From: Amaurobius ferox
Taxonomy: Eukaryota > Arthropoda > Arachnida > Araneae > Amaurobiidae
Assembly (NCBI GenBank): GCA_951213105.1
Contig: OX578152.1
Location: forward strand, 68,984,727-69,048,726
Length of the DNA stretch: 64,000 bases
Direction: 5' to 3'
The position numbers and the translations under genes are program-made. Positions 17,437 through 63,815 of the stretch are shown here, in pieces. The notes below the pieces were generated by a model. That model saw only the letters and a program-made list of their open reading frames with translations, was not told the origin of the DNA and did no database searches. Position 1 is the first letter of the stretch; every line of letters begins with the position of its first letter.

Positions 17437-17695
17437 AAGTGGGGCTTGTGGAGGATCTGAAAATACTTTTCGAAAAAACTCATTTTTTCCGCCCCTGGGA
17501 TCGAAAATCCGCTGTGTCCGATGGTTGATTCTATAAGTGTGCAAAAAATTCTGAGTTCTAAGTCATTATGGAGGGGGGGGGGGGGGGGTTCTGGAAAGTC
17601 TGAAAAGGCTTTTCAAAAACACCCATCTTCTCTGCAACCGGAGAATAAATCGAAAACCTGCCTAAGTTCTGTCCTATGATCCATACTATACGTGT

Positions 17696-18052
17696 TGTTG
17701 TTGAGACCCAGACCGTCCGACCTACCAGAAAGGTGCAAGGTAACTGTTTGGACGGCCGGGAAGTGCCACCCAATTTAGATCGGAACCCAATGGGGGAGGC
17801 ATCCACAGGGACTGTACCCTCATTCCCCTACCACCAACCTCTCGGAAGGACTTACGGACCCATATGTTTAACGTGATCGTACTCCGCATGAACACGGCGG
17901 CAGTTGTGGCAGCGTGCAAATCCAGCGCGCAAACCACCGGGCTACCGCGCCCGAAATGTGCCAGCAGCACGCGGTGCTCCCAGGTGATCACCCACCTAAG
18001 TACTAACCGCGCCCGATGCTGCTTGACTTCGGTGATCTAACGAGAACCGGTC
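17696..18052 (-). mobile_element. 5S rRNA-tRNA chimeric SINE with target duplication
   Basis: In sense (minus) orientation the element has four parts. A 5S rRNA-like 5' region (18050 to 17960) contains CCGGTTCTCG, AGATCACCGAAG, GGTTAGTACTTAGGTGGGTG and CACCTGGGAGCACCGCG, the internal-promoter side of 5S. A tRNA-like segment follows (GGGCGCGGTAGCCC...). The common SINE body is next. The end is the tail unit (GGACGGTCTGGGTCTC) plus an (AAC)n tail. Flanks ATACTATACGTGT (17683-17695) and ATACTATGCGTGT (18053-18065) are a 12/13 target duplication. The first roughly 27 nt of 5S are missing, so it is slightly 5'-truncated. The tRNA B box is lost in this copy (the stretch between the 'gcggcagttgtggcag' and 'cgtgcaaatcc' segments is deleted). 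Confidence 0.85.
17960..18050 (-). ncRNA. 5S rRNA-derived head of the SINE (not a functional 5S gene)
   Basis: The minus strand matches animal 5S rRNA from about nucleotide 28 to the 3' end. It keeps GTTAGTACTT, GGTGGGTGATCACCTGGGA and GCACCGCGTGCTGCTGGC, which covers the region of the pol III A box, intermediate element and C box. It lacks the 5' end of the molecule and runs directly into the tRNA-like part of a SINE, so it serves as a retroposon promoter module, not an rRNA gene. Confidence 0.85.
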
Positions 18053-18480
18053 ATACTATGCGTGTGTAAAGATTCAATCTTTTAAGTCACCAGGGGACTC
18101 CTGGCGGATTTCAAAAGACTCTTCGAGATACTCCATTTTCTTCACTCTCAAGAGGGTGGATGGGGGGGGGGGGTGTAATCGAAAATCCGGCTTAGTTAGG
18201 TTCTGTACCGATACTATAAGTGTATCAATATCTGGCCTAAGTCAATGGAGGGGTTTGTGGTAATATTTTTCGTCCCCCGGCTCCCCAAGGGGTATAAATC
18301 GAAATTTTGGCTCTGTTAGGTTCTATTCCGTAATTAATACTATAAGTGGGCAAGCTGAGTTCGGGTTCTTCTTGAATGAATCATATAGATAAACCTATTT
18401 TAATATAAATAAACTTGATTATAAATAAACGATTTTAATATATATAAGTGTATACTCAGGGACTATTCTTTTCGAAGTTT

Positions 18481-25784: not shown

Positions 25785-26375
25785 CTCGGCGATAACCTCC
25801 TTCCAACCTTTTTGAATTCTGCCCTCAGCAACAAGTTCAACATCAAACCGGAACCTCCGAAAAAGCAACCCCTCATTGTGTTCAATGTTCCGCCTGCTTT
25901 CACAGAAGACAATGTCAGATCTCTCATCTGCAACAACATCCCTTCAATCAGACCTGCAGATATCAGCTTCATTCGAAACTTTCGGAACCGGAGGGGGAAT
26001 GCCAACTGGGTTCTCTTGATGGAACTTCCACAAGCTAGCCTCTTGTTAGATGCAAAGAAACTCTTCCACAATTTTACTTACTTTCTTGTCAAAAAATACA
26101 TATCTTTAAAAATTTGTTATAAATGCCAAGATTATGGGCATACAGCTAACTACTGCTCATTTCCCACTGGCAACTGCAGTCGTTGCACTGCTAGCGACCA
26201 TACACATCGTGACTGTAGAGCACGAACTCCTAGGTGTGTAAACTGTTGTACCGCTATCGATGCCAATCCCGGTTTGAATTGGAACTTTAACCACAGCGCC
26301 CGGGACCACGCCTCGTGCAGCGCTTACAAAAGAGCAATTGAGCATATCAAAAAACTTCAAAAAGAACAGAGATGA
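25785..26375 (+). CDS. LINE ORF1 gag-like zinc-knuckle protein (5'-truncated)
   Basis: The reading frame is open from before the left insertion boundary to TGA at 26373-26375 and has lost its N-terminus and start codon. After a segment with QPLIVFNVPPAFTEDNVRSL, which resembles the RNA-binding fold seen in ORF1 proteins of this group, come two exact CCHC zinc knuckles, CYKCQDYGHTANYC and CSRCTASDHTHRDC, then a partial third (CVNCC). Such proteins coat LINE RNA and act as nucleic-acid chaperones in the retrotransposition particle. The distance to the ORF2 start is 162 bp, in a different frame. No stops interrupt the remaining part, so the insertion looks young. Confidence 0.85.
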   Translation, partial: LGDNLLPTFLNSALSNKFNIKPEPPKKQPLIVFNVPPAFTEDNVRSLICNNIPSIRPADISFIRNFRNRRGNANWVLLMELPQASLLLDAKKLFHNFTYFLVKKYISLKICYKCQDYGHTANYCSFPTGNCSRCTASDHTHRDCRARTPRCVNCCTAIDANPGLNWNFNHSARDHASCSAYKRAIEHIKKLQKEQR

Positions 26376-26537
26376 AACTCTTGCCCTTTGTCTTTTGGTT
26401 GGTATCTCACCACTGTGTTTGTTTTATTTCTTTTGTGTCTTTTATCTCTTGTTATTGTTTGAGTTCTTATGTTTGTCTTGTTTTTGTTCTGATCATATGT
26501 TTGCCTCACTCTGTGTCCTGGAACTGTTCTTCCCGGT

Positions 26538-29500
26538 ATGGTTCTTAATATTATTCAAATTAATCTAAACCACTCCTTAGCAGCGCATAACAACCTTTTT
26601 CAATTTGCCCTAGAAAATAAAATCGATATTGCCTGCTTACAAGAACCATACCTAAACAAAGAGAATGTTCTCAAACCTCCTTTTGGCCTTCAACAATACC
26701 ACTCTTCTTCCAAAAAAGCAGCGATTGTCATTTTCAACCCAAATTTAACTGTTCACTTAAAACTACAATCCCTTTCATTTGTTTTACTAGAAATCACACT
26801 TCCCAATAACACATCTCTTAATTTAGTCTCTACCTATTTTCCCCCGCGCGACAATATTAATGAGCTCCTCTCGGAATTTTCAGATCTTCAAATTTTATCA
26901 TCTGAGTATATAATTCTTGGTGACTTCAGTTCCAGGGCCCAGATGTGGGGCTATGACTTCATTGACCGACGGGGTTACAGCTTGATCGATTTTTGTTTAG
27001 AAAATAACTTAACTGTCGTAAATGATCCGAAGCGGGGTCCTACATTTGTCTCACACTCAGGCAAGGGCTTCCCGGATTTGACTCTGGCTACTTTTGGCAT
27101 ATTTGACAGTATTCAAAATTGGGAGGTCCTCTCAGATGACTCTCTTAGTGATCATAAATATATTAGATTTGCAATTAATGTCGACCTTTCTTTTAATGAT
27201 TCCTTTTTCTTGAAAACAAATTACAGTTTAGGCAAATTCCTTTATAATTTTAAATCTCACGTTAAAACTTTTACCTCTCAGATTGACTCTATAAATGATA
27301 CTCCCTCTCTGGACACCTTCATTGAATCTTTTATCAAAAAAACACAGGAATGTGCTTTCAAATTTATTAGAAAGAAAAAATCGACAAAAAATTTTAATTT
27401 CAGTTGGTGGAGTCCAGAACTCTCTAAATTCAGAAACTTCGTCAATGCTCTTTATAAAAGAGTAAAGTCTCTTGAGAGGGCCTCCGCTTCTTCTGAAATA
27501 ATCTCAGAAGCTTTGGTAAAATATAAACTTAACAGAGCAAAATATAAAATTATGATTTACAGAGCCAAATCCGCTGCCTGGAAAAACCATTGCTCAAGCT
27601 GCTCTTCCAAATTTGGATCCATTTTCAAGTATACGTTTAAAAAAAATAAACACTTTAACGATATAAACCTTCAATTTTCAGATAATATTAACCTCAGTTA
27701 CGGTGAAAAAGTTGAGCGCTTGATGGACCACTGCTTCAAAAACGATCCTGAATTCTCTTCATTTCCCTCGCTTTCACTTCCTCCTGGCGGGTTGGGCTCG
27801 GTTTCGGATGTTGAGCCCCTTCTCGTCTTCAACCATCTCCCCAATGGTAAAGCCCCTGGCGTTGATAACTTAGATTTCAACATCTGGAAAAATGTTTTCA
27901 AATCCTTTCCCTCACTTGTCTCCAAAATTATCAACAAAATTTTTTATCTTGGTCATTTTCCTAGCTCCTTAAAAATCTCAAAAATTATTTTCCTGAATAA
28001 ACCTGGTAAAGACCCCGCTCTCTGTACTTCATACCGCCCCATTTGTTTACTCCCTACATTTGGCAAAGTCATTGAAAAATTTTTTATCAATAAATTAAAT
28101 TTCTGGTTGAATTCAGAAGGTGCTCTCCATCCCCTCCAATTTGGGTTTCGGGAGCTTCACAGCTGTGAAGATGCTGCACTCAAGCTTGTTAAACATATTG
28201 AATCCCTTCGATCAGTCCATCATGTCTCCCTTACCACGGTAGACATCTGCGGGGCCTTTGACAGCTTAAATTGGAATGTTCTTCCCTCTACTTTTGAAAA
28301 AATTAACCTCCCTCTCCCTTTTCGTGCTTTTATTTATTCATATTTGTCCTCCCGTTCTATCACTTTTACCGGTAACAATTTGTCCCTCTCTAAATTACTT
28401 TCTATGGGTGCTCCACAGGGTTCGGTAATTTCTCCGATCCTGTGGAATATCTATTTCAATAGTATCTTAACCCTTAACAACGACCTCTTCTACCTGCAGG
28501 CCTTTGCGGATGATCTGGCCGTGGTCACGTCTGGTTCCGATATTAAATTTACCACCCAAAATACAAATCAAATTCTTGGTCTCATCTCGGATTCCCTCAC
28601 TTCCTTGAAACTTTCAATTTCCCACGAAAAATCAAAATGCATTATTATCAACAAATACAGATCCAAAAGAAAATATAATCGATGTATTAGACTTCAGAAT
28701 AAACCCATCAAAATTTCTAAAACTCTTAACTACCTAGGTATTATAATTGACAATAACTTAAAATGGAGCGCTCACATATTCTACTTAAAAGAAAAATGTT
28801 TCAAGTTGTCCTCAACATTTGGAAAAATTTCTGGGAATAACTGGGGGGTTAATAAAGCTCTTTTAAAAATATGGTACTTGACTGTAATTGAAAAGGTTAT
28901 TATTTACGGATCTGGGGTTTGGGGGGGTAATCTCACACGGGATCAAATTTCAAAACTTACTTCATTACAAAGAATCTTTTTATTAAAAATCTGCCCTGGT
29001 TTTCGGACAACTTCGAACATTTCTCTTTTTTCAATTACCGGTATTCCCCCTGTCCATTTAGTCATTAAAACTCTTTTTATTAAATATAACTTTTGGAAAC
29101 ATAAACTTAACTTATTTTCGGACCCCTCCATTCCCTCCCCTGATCAATTTGATTCCCTTTGTTCTCTTTCTAGCCTTCCTCCTCCCCTTCGTGTTTTAAA
29201 TTTTTCTTCCTCGAACCCTTCCTCGTTTTCTAGGTTTAATGTATTCACAGATGGGTCAAAACTGGATAATAATGTAGGTTTATCAATATGCATTTTCGAA
29301 AATGATCGACTGATCGAATCATTATCCTTTAAACTTAGAACTGGAAACACAGTTTTTCAAGCCGAACTTGAGGCCATCAACCAGGCCATCCTCTGGGCCG
29401 GCAAAAACAATTTAAAAATCAACATCTTTTCGGACAGTCAGTCATCTATTTCGGCTTTTAAATCTATCAAGAATAAAACGAAATTTCTATCTAAAATTAA

Positions 29501-30062
29501 AACTAATGCTCACCCCTACAAATCATTAATTAACTTATCCTGGGTCAAGGCCCATTCTAATATTCAGGGCAACGAAGTCGCCGATGAACTGGCCAAACAA
29601 GCTACGATCTCCGGCACCCCACTCCTTATACCTTTTCCCTACTCCTTTTTGATTAATAATTGTAAATCTTTCCTTCTTAAAAATTGGCAATCTCTTCTTA
29701 ATGATTATATTTCCCCCCGGACTCATGACCCTGCCAGAATTCTAAGCTATTTACCCAAAGTCAACCCCAATTTTCAAATTTATAACAAATTCTTAATCTA
29801 TTTTTTAACGGGTCATGGTCCTTTTCTTGACTATCTTCATTTTTTCAAACATAAACGTTCTTCAAATTGTCTTTGTAATTCATATGGTGACGTAGATCAT
29901 TACGTCTTTAATTGCCCCCATACCTCAAAATTTCACTTAACCCGTCCTCCAGATAATCTTCGTGCGACTTGGTTCTCTGGTGTCAGAACCAATAAAATTC
30001 TTTTAAATAGGTTGAAAAACTGTGTTTTAATTGCGAGAGAAATCTCCAATCAGGTTCCTTAG
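26538..30062 (+). CDS. LINE ORF2: endonuclease, reverse transcriptase, RNase H
   Basis: This is a 1,174-codon ORF starting at the ATG at 26538. The N-terminus is an APE-type endonuclease (QINLNHSLAAHN, LQEPYL, GDFSSRAQMWG near residue 128, LSDHKYI). The usual catalytic GDFN motif reads GDFS (Ser131), a change that would normally impair nicking. The RT follows, with first Asp in VDICGAFDSL (D569), GAPQGS (624-629) and FADD (656-659). RNase H has a complete acidic/His set: D905 (FTDGS), E943, D966, H1006 and D1016. A C-terminal CLCNSYGDVDHYVFNC is the usual zinc-binding end of the group. There are no frameshifts or stops, so apart from Ser131 the protein looks functional. It would perform target-primed reverse transcription, probably on the SINEs and tail units here as well. 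Confidence 0.95.
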   Translation: MVLNIIQINLNHSLAAHNNLFQFALENKIDIACLQEPYLNKENVLKPPFGLQQYHSSSKKAAIVIFNPNLTVHLKLQSLSFVLLEITLPNNTSLNLVSTYFPPRDNINELLSEFSDLQILSSEYIILGDFSSRAQMWGYDFIDRRGYSLIDFCLENNLTVVNDPKRGPTFVSHSGKGFPDLTLATFGIFDSIQNWEVLSDDSLSDHKYIRFAINVDLSFNDSFFLKTNYSLGKFLYNFKSHVKTFTSQIDSINDTPSLDTFIESFIKKTQECAFKFIRKKKSTKNFNFSWWSPELSKFRNFVNALYKRVKSLERASASSEIISEALVKYKLNRAKYKIMIYRAKSAAWKNHCSSCSSKFGSIFKYTFKKNKHFNDINLQFSDNINLSYGEKVERLMDHCFKNDPEFSSFPSLSLPPGGLGSVSDVEPLLVFNHLPNGKAPGVDNLDFNIWKNVFKSFPSLVSKIINKIFYLGHFPSSLKISKIIFLNKPGKDPALCTSYRPICLLPTFGKVIEKFFINKLNFWLNSEGALHPLQFGFRELHSCEDAALKLVKHIESLRSVHHVSLTTVDICGAFDSLNWNVLPSTFEKINLPLPFRAFIYSYLSSRSITFTGNNLSLSKLLSMGAPQGSVISPILWNIYFNSILTLNNDLFYLQAFADDLAVVTSGSDIKFTTQNTNQILGLISDSLTSLKLSISHEKSKCIIINKYRSKRKYNRCIRLQNKPIKISKTLNYLGIIIDNNLKWSAHIFYLKEKCFKLSSTFGKISGNNWGVNKALLKIWYLTVIEKVIIYGSGVWGGNLTRDQISKLTSLQRIFLLKICPGFRTTSNISLFSITGIPPVHLVIKTLFIKYNFWKHKLNLFSDPSIPSPDQFDSLCSLSSLPPPLRVLNFSSSNPSSFSRFNVFTDGSKLDNNVGLSICIFENDRLIESLSFKLRTGNTVFQAELEAINQAILWAGKNNLKINIFSDSQSSISAFKSIKNKTKFLSKIKTNAHPYKSLINLSWVKAHSNIQGNEVADELAKQATISGTPLLIPFPYSFLINNCKSFLLKNWQSLLNDYISPRTHDPARILSYLPKVNPNFQIYNKFLIYFLTGHGPFLDYLHFFKHKRSSNCLCNSYGDVDHYVFNCPHTSKFHLTRPPDNLRATWFSGVRTNKILLNRLKNCVLIAREISNQVP

Positions 30063-30635
30063 CAAGCTTGGTGCCAACTGCTTTCAATTTTCTTCGGTCA
30101 ATGTTGTCCTCCCTGTTCCAGGCGTTTGTCTCTTATTGTTTCTGTACTTACACTTTTTGGTGTCCGTCTTTTGTATATTTTGTTTCCTGTCTATATTTCT
30201 CTGTTGTATATATCTGTTTTCCCTGTGTTCCTCGGCTGTTCATATATTTGAAAGTCTTACCATGTACATGTAGTGCTATATTGCACTTAACTTTTTCCGG
30301 TTACCTCAACTGATTGTAACCTTTATTCAGCTATGTTCTTTTTGCTTTCTTTTGTTGGTTTTTACTGTATTGTCCCTTTTCCCGCGGTTGCTCGGATTCT
30401 TTTGGCCATACGTTTTACATAAATTTAATTTCATTTTAAGAAAATAATTTAATTTTTACCTCAAAATTCAAAATTTGTTAAAATCTACGTTTCTTTGCCT
30501 CCCTTCCCACTGTATTTTATGTAAAACTCTAAAACTGTCTGTATATATATTTACCATGTAACCACTTTATTGAATTTTAAATAATTGCAGACTGAAACTT
30601 GGTGACTGACTGGAGGACGGTTTCGGCTAACCTCC
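30063..30635 (+). other. LINE 3' UTR
   Basis: Pyrimidine-rich non-coding sequence between the ORF2 stop and the structured tail. Two overlapping ORFs of about 80 codons are translations of T/C-rich DNA. A stem around 30611-30633 (GGAGGACGGTTTCGGCTAACCTCC) lies immediately before the tail unit. Confidence 0.75.
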
Positions 30636-30703
30636 TCTCCCGGCCACACATTAAACTGCCGTAAGCCCTAGGGTTGGCTGTGTGGTCTGGGCCTTCGACA
30701 TCG
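30636..30703 (+). ncRNA. Structured 3' tail of the LINE (tail unit prototype)
   Basis: The end of the LINE can form an outer stem GGCCACACA/TGTGTGGTC with an inner hairpin around GCCCTAGGGT, followed by TGGGCCTTCGACA. The same layout with different stem bases (GGCCGTCC/GGACGGTC) ends the 290-bp SINEs and constitutes the solo tail units. The 3' tail is what a LINE reverse transcriptase of the stringent type recognises, so this shared structure links LINE and SINEs as partners. Confidence 0.8.
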
Positions 30704-30863
30704 ACATTCTGTTGTGCCCCCGGCCGTCCAAACAGTTACCTTACACCTTTCTGGTTGGTCGGACGGTCTGGGTTTCAACATTCTGTTGTGCCCGGCCGTC
30801 CATTAAGCTGCTGTATGTCTCCGGATGAGTCTGTCGGCTTGGGCTTTCGACATTCTGTTGTGC
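30704..30863 (+). mobile_element. Two solo tail units stacked behind the LINE
   Basis: Three copies of ACATTCTGTTGTGC (30704-30717, 30778-30791, 30850-30863) separate two inserts: 30718-30777 (60 bp, CCCCGGCCGTCC ... GGACGGTCTGGGTTTCA) and 30792-30849 (58 bp, CCGGCCGTCC ... GGCTTGGGCTTTCG). Both are in the same orientation as the LINE. The inner part of the first (CAGTTACCTTACACCTTTCT) is of the 290-bp SINE type, so it is a 5'-truncated SINE; the second is a different subtype with a decayed right stem. Confidence 0.85.
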
Positions 30864-33090: not shown

Positions 33091-33638
33091 TCTTCGTGAG
33101 GGTGTAGAAGACCCAGACCACACGACCAACCCGAAGCCTTATGGCAGCTGTTTATGTCGCCGGGCTTCGTCAGGGTGTTGAAGTGTTGAAAACCCAGACC
33201 ACACGACAGACCCGAAGGTTTACTGTAGCTAAGTGTGTGGCCGGGGGCTTCGTCAGGGTGTTGTTGTTGTTGAGACCCAGACCGTCCGACCTACCAGAAA
33301 GGTGTAAGGTAACTGTTTGGACGGCCGGGAAGTGCCACCCAATTTAGACCGGAACCCAGTGGGGGAGGCATCCACAGGGACCGTACCCTCCTTCCCCTAC
33401 CACCAACCTCTCGGAAGGACTTACGGACCCACATGTTTAACGTGATCGTACTCCGCGTGAACACGGCGGCAGTTTTGGCAGTGGCTGGAATCGAACCCGG
33501 GCCCACCGAGTGCAACTCCAGCGCGCTAACCAATGGGCTACCGCGCCCCGCTTCGTCAGGGTGTTGAAGACCCAGACCGTCCGACTCGTCCAGAGGACTA
33601 AGAGCAACTATTTGGACGGCCGGGCTTCGTCAGGGTGT
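33091..33638 (-). mobile_element. Stacked array: three tail units and one full SINE at one target
   Basis: Five copies of a 15-bp target, TCTTCGTGAGGGTGT then four GCTTCGTCAGGGTGT (33091-33105, 33164-33178, 33247-33261, 33550-33564, 33624-33638), separate four inserts of 58, 68, 288 and 59 bp, all sense on the minus strand. The first two carry ACAC/GUGU-type outer stems (33106-33163, 33179-33246); the last carries GUCC/GGAC. The units differ too much to be duplications of each other, so repeated insertion into the same spot is the simplest reading. Confidence 0.9.
33262..33549 (-). mobile_element. Full-length 288-bp tRNA-derived SINE inside the array
   Basis: In sense orientation it starts GGGCGCGGTAGCCCATTGGT with A-box-like TTAGCGCGCTGG. 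The B box GGTTCGATTCC is at 33488-33498 (complement). A 170-bp body follows, then the tail unit GGCCGTCC ... GGACGGTCTGGGTCTC and (AAC)n. It is a pol III-transcribed, non-coding retroposon that depends on a LINE. It lacks the 5S head seen in the copy at 17696-18052. Minus-strand ORFs of about 80 codons across this family are chance reading frames of the SINE. Confidence 0.9.
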
Positions 33639-36910: not shown

Positions 36911-36990
36911 ACACACACACACACACCACCGGCCGTCCAAATAGATACTCAATACTCAAGTCCTCAGGACGAGTCGGACGGTCTGGGTCT

Positions 36991-37024
<34 letters not shown>

Positions 37025-37087
37025 ACCGGCCGTCCAAATAGATACTCAATACTCAAGTCCTCAGAACGAGTCGGACGGTCTGGGTCT

Positions 37088-37118
<31 letters not shown>

Positions 37119-37548
37119 CACCGACCTTCCAAATAGATACTCAATACTCAAGTCCTCAGGACGAGTCGGACGGTCTGAGTCTTCTACACACACACACACC
37201 ACCGGCCGTCCAAATAGATACTCAATACTCAAGTCCTCAGGACGAGTCGGACGGTCTGGGTCTTCTACACACACACACACACCACCGACCTTCCAAATAG
37301 ATACTCAATACTCAAGTCCTCAGGACGAGTCGGACGGTCTGGGTCTTCTACACACACACACACACACCACCGGCCGTCCAAATAGATACTCAATACTCAA
37401 GTCCTCAGGACGAGTCGGACGGTCTGGGTCTTCTACACACACACACACACTCACACACCACCGGCCGTCCAAATAGATACTCAATACTCAAGTCCTCAGG
37501 ACGAGTCGGACGGTCTGGGTCTTCTACACACACACACACACACACAAA
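36911..37548 (+). mobile_element. Seven tail units embedded in a (CA)n microsatellite
   Basis: Seven copies of a unit of about 65 bp (starting CCACCGGCCGTCC or CCACCGACCTTCC and ending GGACGGTCTGGGTCTTCT) are separated by (AC)n stretches of variable length (about 12-35 bp). All are in the same (plus) orientation. Inner sequence is almost identical (GATACTCAATACTCAAGTCC, TCAGGACGAGTC), unlike the other arrays, so here amplification by unequal exchange after insertion is likely. Copies 3 and 5 share CGACCTTCC, breaking the outer stem and indicating a duplicated two-unit block. Confidence 0.9.
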
Positions 37549-47925: not shown

Positions 47926-48678
47926 GGGGACGGTGGACGTTGAAATTTTTTGTATTTATTTATTGACTTAGAAACGTGAAAATTTGTATAAATATTCCTC
48001 TTAACATTACTATATACAATACCATTAATTTTTTTTTCAATTTTGTTATAATTTTGTATTTTTTTTTAATTTAATTTTTTTAACGAAATTTGAAAATGCT
48101 TCTTGCGTGCCATTTGTTCACATTTTTTATTCTTTTACATTATGATCACTCAAAAACACATTATGAACAAATTTGGGTATTCATTTTTAAATCCCTTTGA
48201 AAGTTAATTTTTTAAAAATATTTTTCTGCATTAAAACTTAATTTTCATTATTTAATTAGGTTCTTATTCACTTTTAATTACCTTAACAAAGTCTAATTAT
48301 AAAATGCATACCCAGTTTCATTAAAAAGTATGAGAGGTGTCTTATTGCCAAATTTCATACATCTTAGACAAAAATTAAGACGCATAGAGCATTTTAAAAA
48401 TGTAAAACTTTGAAAATTCCGTTTTGAAAAAAATGCATTCAACTTTTTGCTTACGGGTGGGTCAGCGCCCATCCCAAACGAAGAACCTCCCAAAAAGACA
48501 GGTATTTGACATACCCTATCCCAAACAGATCGATCCCCCTTTGCAGGCTTTTTGGGAGGTTCTTCGTTTGGGATGGACGCTGTCCCACCTGTAAGCAAAT
48601 GGTTGAATGTGTAAAATAATGTTATATATTAAAACTTTTTTTAGTCGATTTTTGCTCATTTCAACGTCCACCGTCTCC
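47926..48678 (-). mobile_element. Composite TTAA-type DNA element (copy 2, inverted)
   Basis: The ends GGGGACGGTGGACGTTGAAA (left) and the complement of GGAGACGGTGGACGTTGAAA (right) match copy 1 at 2056-2881, in reverse orientation along the full length. TTAA follows on the right (48679-48682); the left flank reads TATA. The nested foldback at 48442-48602 is shorter than in copy 1, with its centre deleted. No coding sequence. Confidence 0.85.
48442..48602. mobile_element. piggyBac-like foldback nested in composite element (copy 2)
   Basis: Arms ACTTTTTGCTTACGGGTGGG and CCCACCTGTAAGCAAATGG flank a 161-bp foldback with CCCATCCCAAACGAAGAACC on the left and its complement on the right. TTCA and TTGA outside the ends are decayed TTAA. 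Its position within the composite is the same as in copy 1. Confidence 0.8.
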
Positions 48679-48972
48679 TTAATAGGGTTGCAGAACGAGC
48701 AGTTTAATCCAACTACATTCAGCTGCGAACTCGGCCTGTAAAACATCACTTTAAACCACGCAACCAATTATAAATTTATCGACACACTATTGGCTGCGTT
48801 CCCAAAGTTATGATCATGTTCTCATTGTAGATAACAATATTGGTGAATGGTTTCGCACATATTATGCGCTTGCCCGATATAATTAATCTTTGCAATAACA
48901 GCGAAATTGTCTCTATGTGAAAGACCCATACCACTCGACTCATCCTAGGGTATGAGCCAAATTGTCTCTATG

Positions 48973-49260
48973 TTGTTGTTGTTGAGACCCAGACCGTCCG
49001 ACCTACCAGAAAGGTGTAAAGTAACTGTTTGGACGGTCGGGAAGTGCCACCCAATTTAGATCGGAACCCAGTGGGGAAGGCATCCACAGGGACCGTACCC
49101 TCCTTCCCCTACCACCAACCTCTCGGAAGGACTTTCGGACCCACATGTTTAACGTGATCGTACTCCTCATGAACACGGCGGCAGTTTTTGAAGTGGCTGG
49201 AATCGAACCCGGGCCTACCGAGTGCAACTCCAGCGCGCTAACCAATGGGCTACCGCGCCC
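48973..49260 (-). mobile_element. Full-length tRNA-derived SINE (array insert 2)
   Basis: Same structure as 33262-33549: the tRNA-like head is at the right end (B box complement GGAATCGAACC at 49199-49209), then the body, the tail GGACGGTCTGGGTCTC and (AAC)n. About 97% alike to insert 3 by eye, but with independent differences. Confidence 0.9.
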
Positions 49261-49273
49261 AATTGTCTCTATG

Positions 49274-49563
49274 TTGTTGTTGTTAAAACCCAGACCGTCC
49301 GACCTACCAGAAAGGTGTAAGGTAACTGTTTGGACGATCGGGAAGTGCCACCCAATTTATACCGGAACCCAGTGGGGGAGGCATCCACAGGGACCGTACC
49401 CTCCTTCCCCTACCACCAACCTCTCGGAAGGACTTTCGGACCCATATGTTTAACGTGATCTTACTCCGCATGAACACGGCGGCAGTTTTGGCAGTGGCTG
49501 GAATCGAACCCGGGCCTACCGAGTGTAAATCCAGCGCGCTAACCAATGGGCTACCGCGCCCCC
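49274..49563 (-). mobile_element. Full-length tRNA-derived SINE (array insert 3)
   Basis: Collinear with insert 2. B box complement GGAATCGAACC at 49500-49510. It differs at the tail (GTTTTAAC in place of GTCTCAAC) and at scattered positions, so it is a separate insertion, not a duplicate of insert 2. Confidence 0.9.
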
Positions 49564-49576
49564 AATTGTCTCTATG

Positions 49577-49842
49577 TTGTTGTTGTTGAAACCCAGACCC
49601 TCCGACCTACCAGAAAGGTGTAGCCCATTGGTTAGCGCGCTGGAGTTGCACTCGGTAGGCCCGGGTTCGATTCCAGCCACTGCCAAAACTGCCGCCGTGT
49701 TCATGCGGAGTACGATCACGTTAAACATGTAGGTCCGAAAGTCCTTCCGAGAGGTTGGTGGTAGGGGAAGGAGGGTACGGTCCCTGTGGATGCCTCCCCC
49801 ACTGGGTTCCGTTCTAAATTGGATGGCACTTCCCGACCATCC
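49577..49842. mobile_element. SINE with 5' inversion (array insert 4)
   Basis: The tail part (49577-49620) is on the minus strand, ending its homology at CAGAAAGGTGTA. From 49621 the sequence switches to the plus strand and begins inside the tRNA-like head (TAGCCCATTGGTTAGCGCGC, B box GGTTCGATTCC 49664-49674), continuing to GGATGGCACTTCCCGACCATCC at the target duplication. A 5' inversion joined to a normally oriented 3' end is the classic product of twin priming during target-primed reverse transcription. Confidence 0.8.
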
Positions 49843-50261
49843 AATTGTCTCTATGTAGAGTGTAGAAGACCCAGACCGTCCGACTCATCCAGAGGACACG
49901 AGCAACCATTTGGACGGCTGAGAAGGCAATTGTCTCTATGTGAAAGCCCCAGGCCGTCCGGCTCGTCCAGAGGACTTAGAGCAGCGAGATGGACGACCGG
50001 AATTGTCTCTATGTTGAAGACCCAGACCGTCCGACTCGTCCAGAGGACTTAGAGTAACAAGTTGGACGGCCGGGAAGGAATTGTCTCTATGTGTAATAAC
50101 TTTTCGGTACTCTGTGAAAGTGACAAATTCAGTCCTGCCATGCTTCCAGCTTTAAATTTCTTGAAAATTAAACTCGGGCTATGCGAGGTTGTAATGGTTG
50201 AATTATTAGGTTGCATAGTCATAGAGCACGCCTTTAGGGGACGTGTGTGTATGTGTGTGTG

Positions 50262-55301: not shown

Positions 55302-56288
55302 CCATTATGTTATTAGCTGCTTTGCGCAATATCATGATGAAAGTTTTATATTCTGTATTATTTTGTGTTTTATATTCTGTTTTCTACATACAGACTTCTA
55401 TTACATCTTTTAATTTTACTTTTATATTTATTATTTACTTCTGAATTCAACCATCTATCTTTTGATTTTCATACTTGCAAAAAACTTTTTAAAAAGGTAA
55501 AACCTGTTGTAAAGCTGCATTTGCGCTTATTACAGAGTTTATTCTCTTTTTAATTTAATTTTATTTTGTTTATTATTATTATCGCTAACGCATTTCTATT
55601 GTTTAACTACGAGCCCATCTATGTCTTACTATGGCCCTCTTTGGATATTGTTTTTATTATCTAACCCTTTCATTCCTTCTTTTGATTGATTATGGTATGT
55701 CTTCACATTTCGCATTATGGAGTATTTTGGTTTGAGTTCTCTTATCGCTTTTATGATTTTTTCTGCGGGTTATTGCTCTTTTTGGTAGATTTCACACTCG
55801 ATTATTCAATCGATATATATGTGTGTATAGTGCTGACATCTCTCGGCAGGCATTAGAGTTTATTGTGTTTTTTGTGTATTTTTTTCTTTTCTGTATCTTT
55901 TAGTTAACCCAGACGTCAATATCTTTTATTGCTTATTTTTACATTTTAATCTAGACAAGTATTTCCACTATATGTGGCCCTCTTTTGCCCGCAGTTGTAG
56001 GGATTCAGTCAGACACATACGTATTAACAGTTTTGTATATCTTCCATTCCGGATGAATATAATTATTTGTCCACACTTCGCTTATTTATGAATATTTCGT
56101 ATGAAAATCTCTTTTCTACTATGCTTGTTTTATTACTCTCCAAAATTTCGATTCAATTCTTATGGTATTAGTTAAAATTTGAAATTCGTACCTGACAAAA
56201 TAGTTTTGGGGGGGTTTATATTGGGAATTTTAATTAGAATTCGTGATGTAAATTTTCTTCATTACCTAGTGTCCGGTCTATTATTATT
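54542..56288 (+). other. PLE non-coding region between the truncated and the intact copy
   Basis: This region follows the RT stop of the first copy and precedes the intact ORF. It includes the block shared with 46800-47600, a (TA)n run at 55226-55299 and AT-rich sequence. It probably holds the 3' end of copy 1 and the 5' end (pLTR-like) of copy 2, but I cannot place the junction. The ORFs of 107 and 62 codons are low-complexity translations. Confidence 0.55.
55226..55299. repeat. (TA)n microsatellite
   Basis: A TA run of about 74 bp inside the PLE non-coding region. Confidence 0.95.
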
Positions 56289-58850
56289 ATGAATTGGGAT
56301 AATTATAGATCGACAAACATTGACCAATTAAGCGTTATAGACGATTTGGAAGAATACCATACCTTCTCTCAATCTAAATCATATTCCTTCAATAGATGCA
56401 ACAATCTTAGGTGCAAAACTTGTCCTTATGCTGACCCATTACAAATTAATAATAATTCCACTTCACAAAAATTCTGCAAAGTTTTTAATTGCATATACAA
56501 ACTTAATTGTACTATTTGTAACTTATCCTATATTGGCCAAACCAGCAACCCTTTACATCTGAGAATGAATGTCCACAGGGATCATATTAAAAAATTTGAC
56601 CATAAAGTCTTTAATGATCTCCCTACCAAAAATCAATTTGAATATCAGCACTTTGCTACACACGGATTTAAAAATGTATCCCTTCATATTTTAGATATTA
56701 AAATTTCACTCACGGATAGATTAGTATTTGAAAATTATTACATTAAAAAATATAAAACTCTCTTCCCCTATGGCTTAAATCAAATTTATAATAATAATAA
56801 TGTTGTTAACAATAGTTTTGAATACAATTCTCATAAATCTTCAGTATATAAACATCTTTTTCATTATTCAAAGTCATCATCTCCTAGTAAAAAGCGATAT
56901 AAGCGTGGCAACGGAAAAAGTAACTTAAGTAAAACTATTGATTACAAAGCAGACATTTTGAAATTACAATATAATTATTCTCAAACTTTCAATTTTCTAC
57001 CTGTTAGAACATGGTTATATAAAGTCAGAAAAAGCAAATTAAGTATTGTTTATACTAATTTTTTAAAATTAAAATTAACTCATGAGCATTTTAAACATTT
57101 ATTTTTTGATTTGCTTCTTTCACGTACACATTTCTTAAATTACCACCTACTCCATTCACCTAATCCACATACTAAAATAGCTTACTGTGTAATTTCTTTT
57201 AAACACCCTATTCTTAATTCTCTTAACTTCAATAATTTATTTGCAAAACATAAGCACTTGTTACCAGTAAATGATATCAAAATACAAAAATCATTCAAAT
57301 ATAATTTACCAATTGGTAGAACTATTTACAATTACAATGAAGTTTCTAGGACATTAAACTCCGATGATCTTACATCATGTGTATGCAGCAATCAAAATCT
57401 TGCCCCTTTTGTCAACTCCACTCATGGTCACATTATTACTGGGGATCTCAGTATAGTTCAGGATGATATACTTAGGGATATTATGAATAAAGGGTCTAAA
57501 TTTCGCATTCCATTCTGCCATCACCCTAAACAACTTCTTCAGTCTCTATCATTTGATTTTGATAAATTCATATATCAACTTGCTTGTTCACATTCTATTC
57601 CTATTGAAGCATTCAATCTATGGAAGTATACGACCTTACATCTACTTAAAAATGTTATTATAAACACTAAATTAACGAAGCCTAGGTATCCTTATAAACA
57701 ACTCCTATCTGCTATCAAAGAACTACAACAACATTTTGTCATAACTTATGTAGATAAAGCTTCTAATAATTATGCCATCATTTGTAAAAAATATTATGTT
57801 TCTCTGTTACAGAATTACTTAAAAGATAATCAAATTTTTAAACCCATTAATAATCAGTCTATCCAAATCAAAACTAAAATGCTAAAATTATATACACAAT
57901 TAAATATTAATTGTAAGTTTTTTAAATTTCCTTATGTTACTTTGGTTCCTAAATTCCACAAATCACCTCTCAGTTTTAGAACAGTCACTTGTGGACATAA
58001 TACCTTTACCACTACAGCTAGTAAGTACTTGCTTAACTGTTTAAATCGAATTAATGAATCTCTTAAATTCAGGAATTCAGGATATTTCATTTTGAACAAT
58101 AGTTTTGATTTAGTTAATCACCTTAGCAAGTTACCACAAATTCTTGGTTTCCAAACCTTTGATTTTAAAGACCTATTTAATAATATTGTCATTAAAGATT
58201 TACATAAAGTTATTATCTCTCTTTATCATGACTATATATCTTCCAATCATGATGCTTTTAATGTAAAAAATTTTCCTATGCTCTTGCACTTTGTGTTATA
58301 CAACAATTATATTATCCAAGGTGATAACATTTATTTACAAACATCTGGTGTACCACAAGGTGGCTGTAGTAGTAGTATACTCGCTAACTTATATCTTTAT
58401 TATTATGAATGTCATTTTAACTCTAATTCATATATTATATATAGATATGTAGACGACTTAATTTGTATTATCATTGATGATTCCTATCCCATTAATATTG
58501 ATTTTTACCCGTCTAACCTAGAATTAATTCCTAATGAGCCTTGCGTTAGTCAAACTGTTAATTTTTTAGACCTAAATATAGATACCCTCAATAATCATGT
58601 AATTACCAATCTATATGATAAAAAAGATTCTTACAACTTCACTATCATAAAGCTGCTATCATATCAATCTTGTAATTCTATTCAATTGTTTAGAAACATC
58701 ATTTTAAACCAGCTATTTCGAATACATCGACTTTCTGATCCTCAGTTTCACTTTCTCCACATCAATAAACTTAAACGCATTTGTCAAAACTACCTATATC
58801 CGGAAGTATTTGTAAATAATATTATTAATAATTTCAAATATACCACGTAA
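56289..58850 (+). CDS. Penelope-like element protein: N-terminal GIY-YIG endonuclease plus reverse transcriptase
   Basis: This is an 853-codon uninterrupted ORF starting at the ATG at 56289. Residues 37-45 hold a Cys cluster (CNNLRCKTC) with more Cys at 63 and 68. A GIY-YIG nuclease then spans about 66-165: CIYKLNC, YIGQT (81-85), LR and H in LHLRMNVHR, and the catalytic Glu in VFENYYI (about 148). The middle has the PLE-typical CVCSNQN ... HIITGDLSIV. The RT has ITYVDKASNNYAIIC (about 485), FPYVTLVPKFHK, motif A FDFKDLF (D625), GVPQGG (687-692), YRYVDDLI (catalytic D722, D723) and NFLDLNI. Canonical Penelope carries GIY-YIG at the C-terminus; here it is N-terminal, as in the Naiad-type PLE clade. 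All key residues are present, so the protein may be active. Confidence 0.95.
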   Translation: MNWDNYRSTNIDQLSVIDDLEEYHTFSQSKSYSFNRCNNLRCKTCPYADPLQINNNSTSQKFCKVFNCIYKLNCTICNLSYIGQTSNPLHLRMNVHRDHIKKFDHKVFNDLPTKNQFEYQHFATHGFKNVSLHILDIKISLTDRLVFENYYIKKYKTLFPYGLNQIYNNNNVVNNSFEYNSHKSSVYKHLFHYSKSSSPSKKRYKRGNGKSNLSKTIDYKADILKLQYNYSQTFNFLPVRTWLYKVRKSKLSIVYTNFLKLKLTHEHFKHLFFDLLLSRTHFLNYHLLHSPNPHTKIAYCVISFKHPILNSLNFNNLFAKHKHLLPVNDIKIQKSFKYNLPIGRTIYNYNEVSRTLNSDDLTSCVCSNQNLAPFVNSTHGHIITGDLSIVQDDILRDIMNKGSKFRIPFCHHPKQLLQSLSFDFDKFIYQLACSHSIPIEAFNLWKYTTLHLLKNVIINTKLTKPRYPYKQLLSAIKELQQHFVITYVDKASNNYAIICKKYYVSLLQNYLKDNQIFKPINNQSIQIKTKMLKLYTQLNINCKFFKFPYVTLVPKFHKSPLSFRTVTCGHNTFTTTASKYLLNCLNRINESLKFRNSGYFILNNSFDLVNHLSKLPQILGFQTFDFKDLFNNIVIKDLHKVIISLYHDYISSNHDAFNVKNFPMLLHFVLYNNYIIQGDNIYLQTSGVPQGGCSSSILANLYLYYYECHFNSNSYIIYRYVDDLICIIIDDSYPINIDFYPSNLELIPNEPCVSQTVNFLDLNIDTLNNHVITNLYDKKDSYNFTIIKLLSYQSCNSIQLFRNIILNQLFRIHRLSDPQFHFLHINKLKRICQNYLYPEVFVNNIINNFKYTT

Positions 58851-63649: not shown

Positions 63650-63815
63650 TTCGACAATAAGAGCTTGCAATTTCGTCCCAGTAGCTCAACGGTAGACCGT
63701 CGGATGGCCAGTTCGGAGTTTCAGGGTTCGATTCCCGGTTGGGAAAGCAAAGTTTTTTACAATGGCACCCGAACAAATCAACCCTGTAGGTTAGTACAAA
63801 GATGTCGGAGGTCTG
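63650..63815 (+). mobile_element. tRNA-derived SINE, second family (full length)
   Basis: Leader CACTTCGACAATAAGAGCTT, tRNA-like part GTCCCAGTAGCTCAACGGTA with B box GGTTCGATTCC (63725-63735), then AAAGTTTTTTACAATGGCAC, CCGAACAAATCAACCCTGTA and GGAGGTCTGAA. It is immediately followed by a tail unit. Confidence 0.85.

Follow-up and report, generated by a model that had tools for sequence, protein, structure and literature searches.

The stack at 48.9–50.1 kb

Between positions 48905 and 50091 of the window (by which is meant throughout the whole stretch of 64,000 nucleotides that was analysed) lie eight exact copies of the 13-mer AATTGTCTCTATG, all on the + strand, and between successive copies lie seven inserts (Table 1). 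The 13-mer is absent from the rest of the window, and only 0.01 copies would be expected there by chance (mean of 100 shuffles), so that the eight identical 13-bp target duplications claimed for this locus by a first-pass annotation are certainly present. The claim that seven differing inserts of 42–290 bp separate them also stands, since the measured lengths of inserts 1–7 are 42, 288, 290, 266, 72, 60 and 65 bp and their types are distinct: there are two full tRNA-type SINEs, one SINE with an inverted 5′ part and four short pieces of a 3′ stem-loop. All seven share a single orientation, with the element on the − strand, its 3′ tail at the low coordinate and a target copy beside it.

Table 1 Features of the three stacks and of the array at 36.9 kb. 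CM, covariance model of the stem-loop.
Feature	Position	Strand	Description
LINE, member of third stack	25785..30704	+	5′-truncated in ORF1, ends in shared stem-loop
Rest of third stack	30705..30863	+	Behind LINE; two stubs, CATTCTGTTGTGC present three times
Second stack	33092..33637	−	Four inserts (three stubs, one SINE); CACCCTGACGAAG present five times, a single copy carrying a substitution
SINE of second stack	33261–33549		Reference for identities of inserts 2 and 3
Array of seven near-identical stubs	36928..37526	+	In (CA)n tract; 94–100% identity within array
Target copy 1	48905..48917	+	Exact 13-mer; 3′-most in element orientation, native flank beyond
Insert 1	48918..48959	−	42-nt piece, 3′ part of stem-loop, diverged subfamily; weak CM score, 9.1 bits
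Target copy 2	48960..48972	+	Exact 13-mer
Insert 2	48973..49260	−	Full-length tRNA-type SINE, (CAA)n tail; stem-loop CM 68.7 bits
Target copy 3	49261..49273	+	Exact 13-mer
Insert 3	49274..49563	−	Full-length SINE
Target copy 4	49564..49576	+	Exact 13-mer
Insert 4	49577..49842	−	SINE with 5′ part inverted, twin-priming-type
Target copy 5	49843..49855	+	Exact 13-mer
Insert 5	49856..49927	−	Stem-loop-only stub, longer tail; CM 61.6 bits
Target copy 6	49928..49940	+	Exact 13-mer
Insert 6	49941..50000	−	Stem-loop-only stub; CM 63.8 bits
Target copy 7	50001..50013	+	Exact 13-mer
Insert 7	50014..50078	−	Stem-loop-only stub; CM 79.7 bits, E 1.7e-25
Target copy 8	50079..50091	+	Exact 13-mer; 5′-most in element orientation, native flank TTATTACA before it on − strand

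Inserts 2 and 3, each of about 290 bp, consist of a head that looks tRNA-like by eye, a common body and a (CAA)n tail. Letters resembling Pol III boxes can be picked out by eye in the heads of the SINEs, none of which ARAGORN recognised as a tRNA. Insert 4 is more complex. The earlier description of the inserts as full and inverted SINEs is right for the full ones, but the inverted one is inverted only in part: its 5′ 223 nt are reversed (insert positions 1–223 correspond to SINE positions 231–9 read backwards), its last 46 nt run in the normal sense (221–266 correspond to SINE 244–289), and 12 nt of the SINE have been lost between the two parts. In a twin-priming inversion the 5′ part is inverted relative to the 3′ part, a little sequence is lost at the junction and the target duplication is kept, and all of these features, including the kept duplication, are found in insert 4. 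Adjoining the stack, at 48421–48600, is a long hairpin whose arms contain GAAGAACCTCCCAAAAA (by eye).

The shared stem-loop and the LINE

Twenty stem-loops of the window were aligned, and a covariance model was made from the same 20, which therefore match it by construction. In the resulting structure, comprising two helices and a small inner hairpin, 95.2% of cells are paired, as against at most 42.4% in slid versions. Cells showing a double change number 46, against 15.3 in shuffles, while the pairs with changes on both sides number eight, no more than shuffling gives (161 of 500 shuffles were as high). When four of the stem-loops were folded singly, two were clearly stabler than shuffles (z −3.72 and −3.27), and the LINE end (z −1.30) and the stub at 31.4 kb (z 0.59) were not clearly so. 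Scanned over the window, the covariance model gives 30 hits at E ≤ 1, 27 of these at E < 1e-13. The ends of SINE, stubs and LINE, from which the structure and the model were built, fit that one structure and that one model, so that the SINE has its 3′ end in common with the LINE, and compensatory changes occur in the stem-loop that all three share; in particular, the stem letters of the LINE differ from those of the SINE stems, yet remain complementary. The LINE 3′ end scores 64.2 bits, being itself a row used to build the model. The possibility that the stem-loop belongs to a known RNA family or ribozyme was rejected, as a search of the window against Rfam at gathering scores gave no family for it, the sole match being a 5S rRNA.

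The LINE itself contains a frame for ORF2 (26493–30062, 1189 codons) with matches to endonuclease (EN), reverse transcriptase (RT) and RNase H (PF14529, PF00078 and PF00075 respectively). Endonuclease and reverse transcriptase are thus present in one frame, as expected of a non-LTR retrotransposon, and target duplications, variable 5′ ends and a fixed 3′ end are also found, as for such elements in general. ORF1 is cut at its 5′ end, at the target junction, and includes a zinc-knuckle match that falls below the curated cut-off. Comparison of the endonuclease with PDB sequences gave TRAS1 (E 1.6e-11) and R1Bm (E 2.3e-6), and the best protein relative among the 40 matches listed is 60% identical; no relatives were found in viral and prokaryote contigs. 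The predicted agent of the stack insertions is a LINE whose endonuclease is R1/TRAS-like.

A further point concerns where the stubs begin. Among the stub-type units with a recognisable duplication in the random pieces of the genome (see below), seven of eight start no more than 3 nt from the start of the model, the eighth (L029) starting inside the stem-loop. This suggests that copying may stop near the base of the stem, or alternatively that the RNA may be trimmed to a bound stem-loop.

Other insertions in the window

Two further stacks are present in the window, and their targets are unrelated to AATTGTCTCTATG. In the third stack, at 30.7 kb, the target length is 9 bp for the LINE and 13 bp for the other units. 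The stubs at 36.9 kb make up an array of a different kind, which is duplicated rather than stacked and which illustrates how a minisatellite can arise from stubs.

At 1.2, 17.4 and 31.4 kb there are single inserts, each flanked by an exact duplication (11–14 bp); with random placements, an exact duplication of at least 11 arose in 19 of 2000 trials. For the SINE at 17.7 kb a duplication matching at 12 of 13 positions was found only once the adjoining 5S part was taken in, while for the units at 1.8 kb (a foldback) and at 63.3 and 63.8 kb (a SINE and a stub) a duplication was sought and not found. The 5S part just mentioned is a piece of 5S rRNA (Rfam, 49.7 bits) fused to the SINE head inside the one 13-bp duplication (17692–18079, − strand), and the fusion looks as it would after a template jump; a similar junction of 5S and SINE can be seen by eye at the end of L059. 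The foldback (1830–1975) consists of two head-to-head stem-loops within a larger palindrome, the flanks of which also look inverted. Elsewhere in the window there is a frame of 867 codons (56247–58850, + strand) with a GIY-YIG match just below the Pfam cut-off and, by eye, a Penelope-type look, and ARAGORN calls a tRNA-Gly (gcc) at 63675–63746.

Genome-wide occurrence

The genome (3.56 Gb in 276 contigs) was searched with sequence patterns, reversed patterns serving as controls. The 13-mer AATTGTCTCTATG occurs in 84 exact copies, eight of them in the main stack, against 441 for its reversed control, and being rarer than this control it was rejected as a target used genome-wide. Two of its copies lie 98 bp apart on another chromosome (G000:C14:74893505 and 74893603), which is possibly a small stack.

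Searching instead for the signature of stacking itself, i.e. an element tail, a spacer of 8–24 nt and the next 5′ end, CCGGCCGTCC, gave 349 matches as against none for the reversed control, a figure that covers one exact spelling only and includes some matches that are copies of a single locus. With this number of exact matches, the opinion of the first-pass annotation that stacks of this kind are unusual is not borne out in the present genome. Twenty places on C1 and C2, among the matches listed, were examined (omitting eight near-identical matches at C1:64.4–64.6 Mb and one more on C1), and all 20 have at least three copies of their own target between the units, up to two mismatches being allowed; having been picked by the pattern, they are uninformative as to how common stacks are. 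For that purpose a separate sample was used, which comprised 30 pieces of three kb selected with the 13-mer and 20 of ten kb at even spacing, 290 kb altogether. This contains 30 stem-loops (9 and 21 in two scans), or about 0.1 per kb as compared with 0.4 in the window, and its 27 loci, a small number, include two clear stacks (L044 and L014) and one weak one (L047, with six shared letters).

Target copies are very well preserved: over 89 copies in 24 stacks there are nine mismatches in 969 letters, in a tally made by hand that includes the L044 stack, uses a 10-letter core for L063 and drops chance matches by eye. The duplications are mostly 11–15 bp long, the exceptions being those of the LINE and L042, at 9 bp, and that of the weak case L047, at six. 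An empty paralogous site corresponding to the main stack was looked for in the genome at up to three mismatches and none was found; there were three matches, one being the main stack and the other two having three mismatches each, with none for the reversed control and about 1.5 reckoned by chance.

Two of the stacks found elsewhere show individual peculiarities. That in L055 (1–150) apparently occupies the loop of a stem-loop of SINE type, in which TTACACC matches the nick motif described below, so that elements themselves can serve as targets. In L054 a tail-only insert of 13 nt, TCTGGGTCTTCAA, is found between two target copies, and a neighbouring unit has an internal repeat resembling reverse-transcriptase slippage.

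Independent insertion or duplication

If a stack had arisen by duplication of one unit, its members should be one another's closest relatives. Inserts 2 and 3 are 95.1% identical to each other, but are closer to the SINE of the second stack (96.5% for insert 2 and 95.8% for insert 3). For the units of the window alone, mean identity within stacks is 0.652, as against 0.621 when shuffled, 13% of shuffles being as high. A larger set comprises 57 units from 23 stacks (45 of 56 genome rows and, from the three stacks of the window, 12 of 14 units, leaving out nine rows below 37 bits, L057 at 51.4 bits, L069 at 65.1 bits with a neighbouring target, and inserts 4 and 1). Here identity averages 0.723 inside stacks and 0.740 from one stack to another, the observed value being reached in 1729 of 2000 shuffles, and for only three of the 57 units is the nearest relative a member of the same stack. 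Adding the 13 weak, cut or rearranged units (70 units, 24 stacks) gave 0.725 within and 0.731 between for ungapped columns, with 1280 of 2000 shuffles as high and five of 70 nearest relatives in the same stack; with gaps counted the corresponding figures are 0.625, 0.654, 1854 of 2000 and six of 70. Since the target copies are far better conserved than the units between them, the stacks look recent, and the inserts came from sources that were already diverse. The units being no more alike within stacks than between them also led to the rejection of an idea taken from the R1 model (see below), that read-through transcripts might home to their own locus, in which case neighbours would be alike.

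These results bear directly on how the main stack arose. Multiplication of a single insert, whether by tandem duplication or by crossing-over of an unequal kind between target copies, is a very improbable explanation for it, and single-unit duplication was rejected for the main stack because its inserts are mixed in type and length, and because 54 of 57 units in the one set, and 64–65 of 70 in the other, are most closely related to a unit of another stack; the earlier claim that duplication of one unit cannot give such a pattern is upheld by the same facts. Duplication does account for the 36.9-kb array, with its 94–100% identity, and is possible in L051 and L067, each of which contains one pair of units that are 97–98% alike. 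One could also imagine that tandem duplication was followed by gene conversion from other copies, which could in principle diversify the inserts while keeping the targets, but as pieces of 42 nt would have to be exchanged for SINEs of 290 nt, at many places and with the target borders exact each time, it is hardly to be credited. An assembly artefact is just as hard to believe, in that the 20 places examined repeat the design with other targets, and an error would not create new targets that match one another. It seems highly likely, instead, that the stack was built by repeated target-primed insertions, each of which duplicated the target and left it whole for the next. Sequential insertion with regeneration of the target, as proposed at the outset, is supported both by the fact that the units are seldom mutual closest relatives and by the presence inside the stack of the partly inverted insert 4.

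Where insertions land

Nineteen native sites, i.e. those with a recognisable duplication in the window and the random pieces, could be compared. At nine of these the sequence at the nick is TT[AC]CAC, where 0.09 would be expected, and the other ten are without an exact TT[AC]CAC. Certain host repeats also recur among the sites: L057 and L061 have a common flank ending ATTATGACA|CACTTTCCAACTG followed by different stubs (a host repeat, judged by eye), and L016, L044 and L060 have another flank in common, with different units inserted at the same base (again by eye). Host repeats thus seem to have been struck repeatedly at the same base, which would mean that the local sequence matters.

Whether such a preference is enough to produce stacks can be gauged from a model with Poisson-distributed hits on motif sites, in which a generous 63% of events are placed at the motif. 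The model gives a proportion of loci with multiple hits of 3% at the genome rate and 10% at the window rate, while the number of seven-hit sites per 200 kb comes to about 1e-10 and 2e-7 respectively, and scaled to the whole genome to about 2e-6. The 2–3 stacked loci among the 27 of the sample do not clearly exceed the predicted 3%; a stack of seven inserts does exceed the prediction. As the model predicts essentially no site with seven hits, a motif plus regeneration of the target is insufficient, and it must be that some sites are much hotter than others or that occupied ones attract more hits.

Mechanism and direction of growth

The findings fit target-primed insertion in which the stagger is more or less constant, and the scheme would be as follows. 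The LINE endonuclease would nick near a short motif, TT[AC]CA|C, and the second strand would be cut some 13 bp away, so that the whole target is copied; an RNA ending in ...CAACA would be primed at the nick, and reverse transcription would often halt just after the stem-loop, giving stubs of about 60 nt. The copy reused for the next insertion may be that at the 5′ end, with its native flank, as in the R1 model, in which case the stack would grow at that end. The inversion in insert 4 would use a top-strand end at the 5′ side of that insert, so that inserts 5–7, situated between it and the native 5′ flank, would represent other events. The order of divergence along the three stacks is not significant as an order of age (p = 0.22). 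Where a target copy at the end of a stack is changed, it is the 3′-most in the 33-kb stack, L052 and L065 and the 5′-most in L044, the changed copies in L055, L056 and L059 being uncounted because they are internal or because the end of the stack is not seen. The changed end copies therefore point, by three to one, to growth at the 5′ end, but they are too few.

The opposite direction of growth has also to be considered. With its letters ...TTCAACA the element tail resembles the native motif, TT[AC]CACA, and might make occupied sites favoured ones, so that new copies would tend to land behind a resident 3′ tail and stacks would grow at their 3′ side. Such docking at tails would fit the excess of many-hit stacks over the Poisson model, the position of the internal target copies, which follow element tails and mostly have an A just before CA, and the odd target copy at the 5′ end in L044. 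Nevertheless it seems rather unlikely, given that the 5′-most copy is the better match to the native motif, that the R1 precedent uses the 5′ copy, that the host repeats of L016, L044 and L060 were struck at one and the same base with no earlier tail in sight, and that three stacks have their changed target copy at the 3′ end. A quite different possibility is that the whole stack was polymerised in a single event, the enzyme copying the 13-nt overhang after one RNA and then priming the next RNA on it. This would yield exactly identical targets, and those observed come close to that, with 9 of 969 letters differing. The target lengths in the 30.7-kb stack are unequal, though, and the inversion of insert 4 in mid-stack would need a top-strand end at its own left side, which would exclude inserts 5–7 from any such run; polymerisation in one event is accordingly thought improbable, and repeated separate insertions remain the preferred account.

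Relation to known systems

The closest parallel is provided by the R1 elements of Drosophila, of which the study of tandem arrays is reportedly due to Stage and Eickbush. R1 is an APE-type LINE inserting at one site. The part of the account used here (PMC2718515) describes tandem R1 copies in the 28S rRNA genes of seven Drosophila species, with 14-bp target copies between them, averaging two to three elements per inserted unit in the richest species, and its authors deduce that new elements entered the target copy lying 5′ of the resident one. In outline the present stacks resemble this, their units likewise being separated by a target duplication. By comparison with what that part of the source describes, where one 28S target is fixed and the cargo is R1, the stacks discussed here have locus-specific targets, a mixed cargo of SINEs, LINE and stubs, up to seven units, and a distribution over many chromosomes. 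Since the native targets vary by locus rather than forming a fixed 28S site, identity with R1 itself was rejected. What is new relative to this precedent, as far as the consulted part of it extends, is therefore the variation of targets between loci around a short motif, the mixed cargo and the genome-wide spread.

Three other systems share individual features. LINE/SINE pairs of the stringent type have a conserved 3′ stem-loop in common, followed by short repeats, according to a review (PMC3747384), and a 3′ stem-loop common to SINE and LINE is likewise found here, with the difference that inserts consisting of nothing but the stem-loop, about 60 nt long, are frequent as well. In Lepidoptera, truncated RTE tails form numerous 3′-end-only copies with target duplications (PMC2887409, in part), which is again as here; stacking is not described in the portion of that paper used, and here the stub ends lie near the base of the stem-loop. 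Target-specific R1-clade LINEs and microsatellite-specific LINEs are both mentioned in the relevant part of PMC4640811. The present system can also be set beside particular LINEs that prefer short repeats. Waldo and Mino are R1-clade APE-type LINEs with microsatellite targets, and the short CA-rich target and the array in a (CA)n tract are reminiscent of them, whereas most native sites here are not microsatellites. In searches of an open-access library no account was seen of SINEs or stubs stacked on one common target.

In the usual picture an insertion uses up its target or moves away from it, while here the target is apparently never consumed, so that a locus can take many inserts without any new host sequence being hit. 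Stacks could in this sense act as a built-in safe harbour, and could also offer a route by which SINE tails seed tandem-repeat arrays. A more tentative reading, which may well prove mistaken, is that occupied sites are favoured by a weakly specific LINE/SINE system and that thousands of loci thereby keep a record of the retrotransposons that were active, built up in order of time somewhat as in a CRISPR array; as part of the same tentative reading, each insertion might rebuild the landing site, or its tail might supply one. If most of the 349 pattern matches are real stacks, like the 20 that were examined, they would allow tests of the re-entry site of the LINE, of the constancy of the stagger, of the stops of the reverse transcriptase and of the order of subfamilies.
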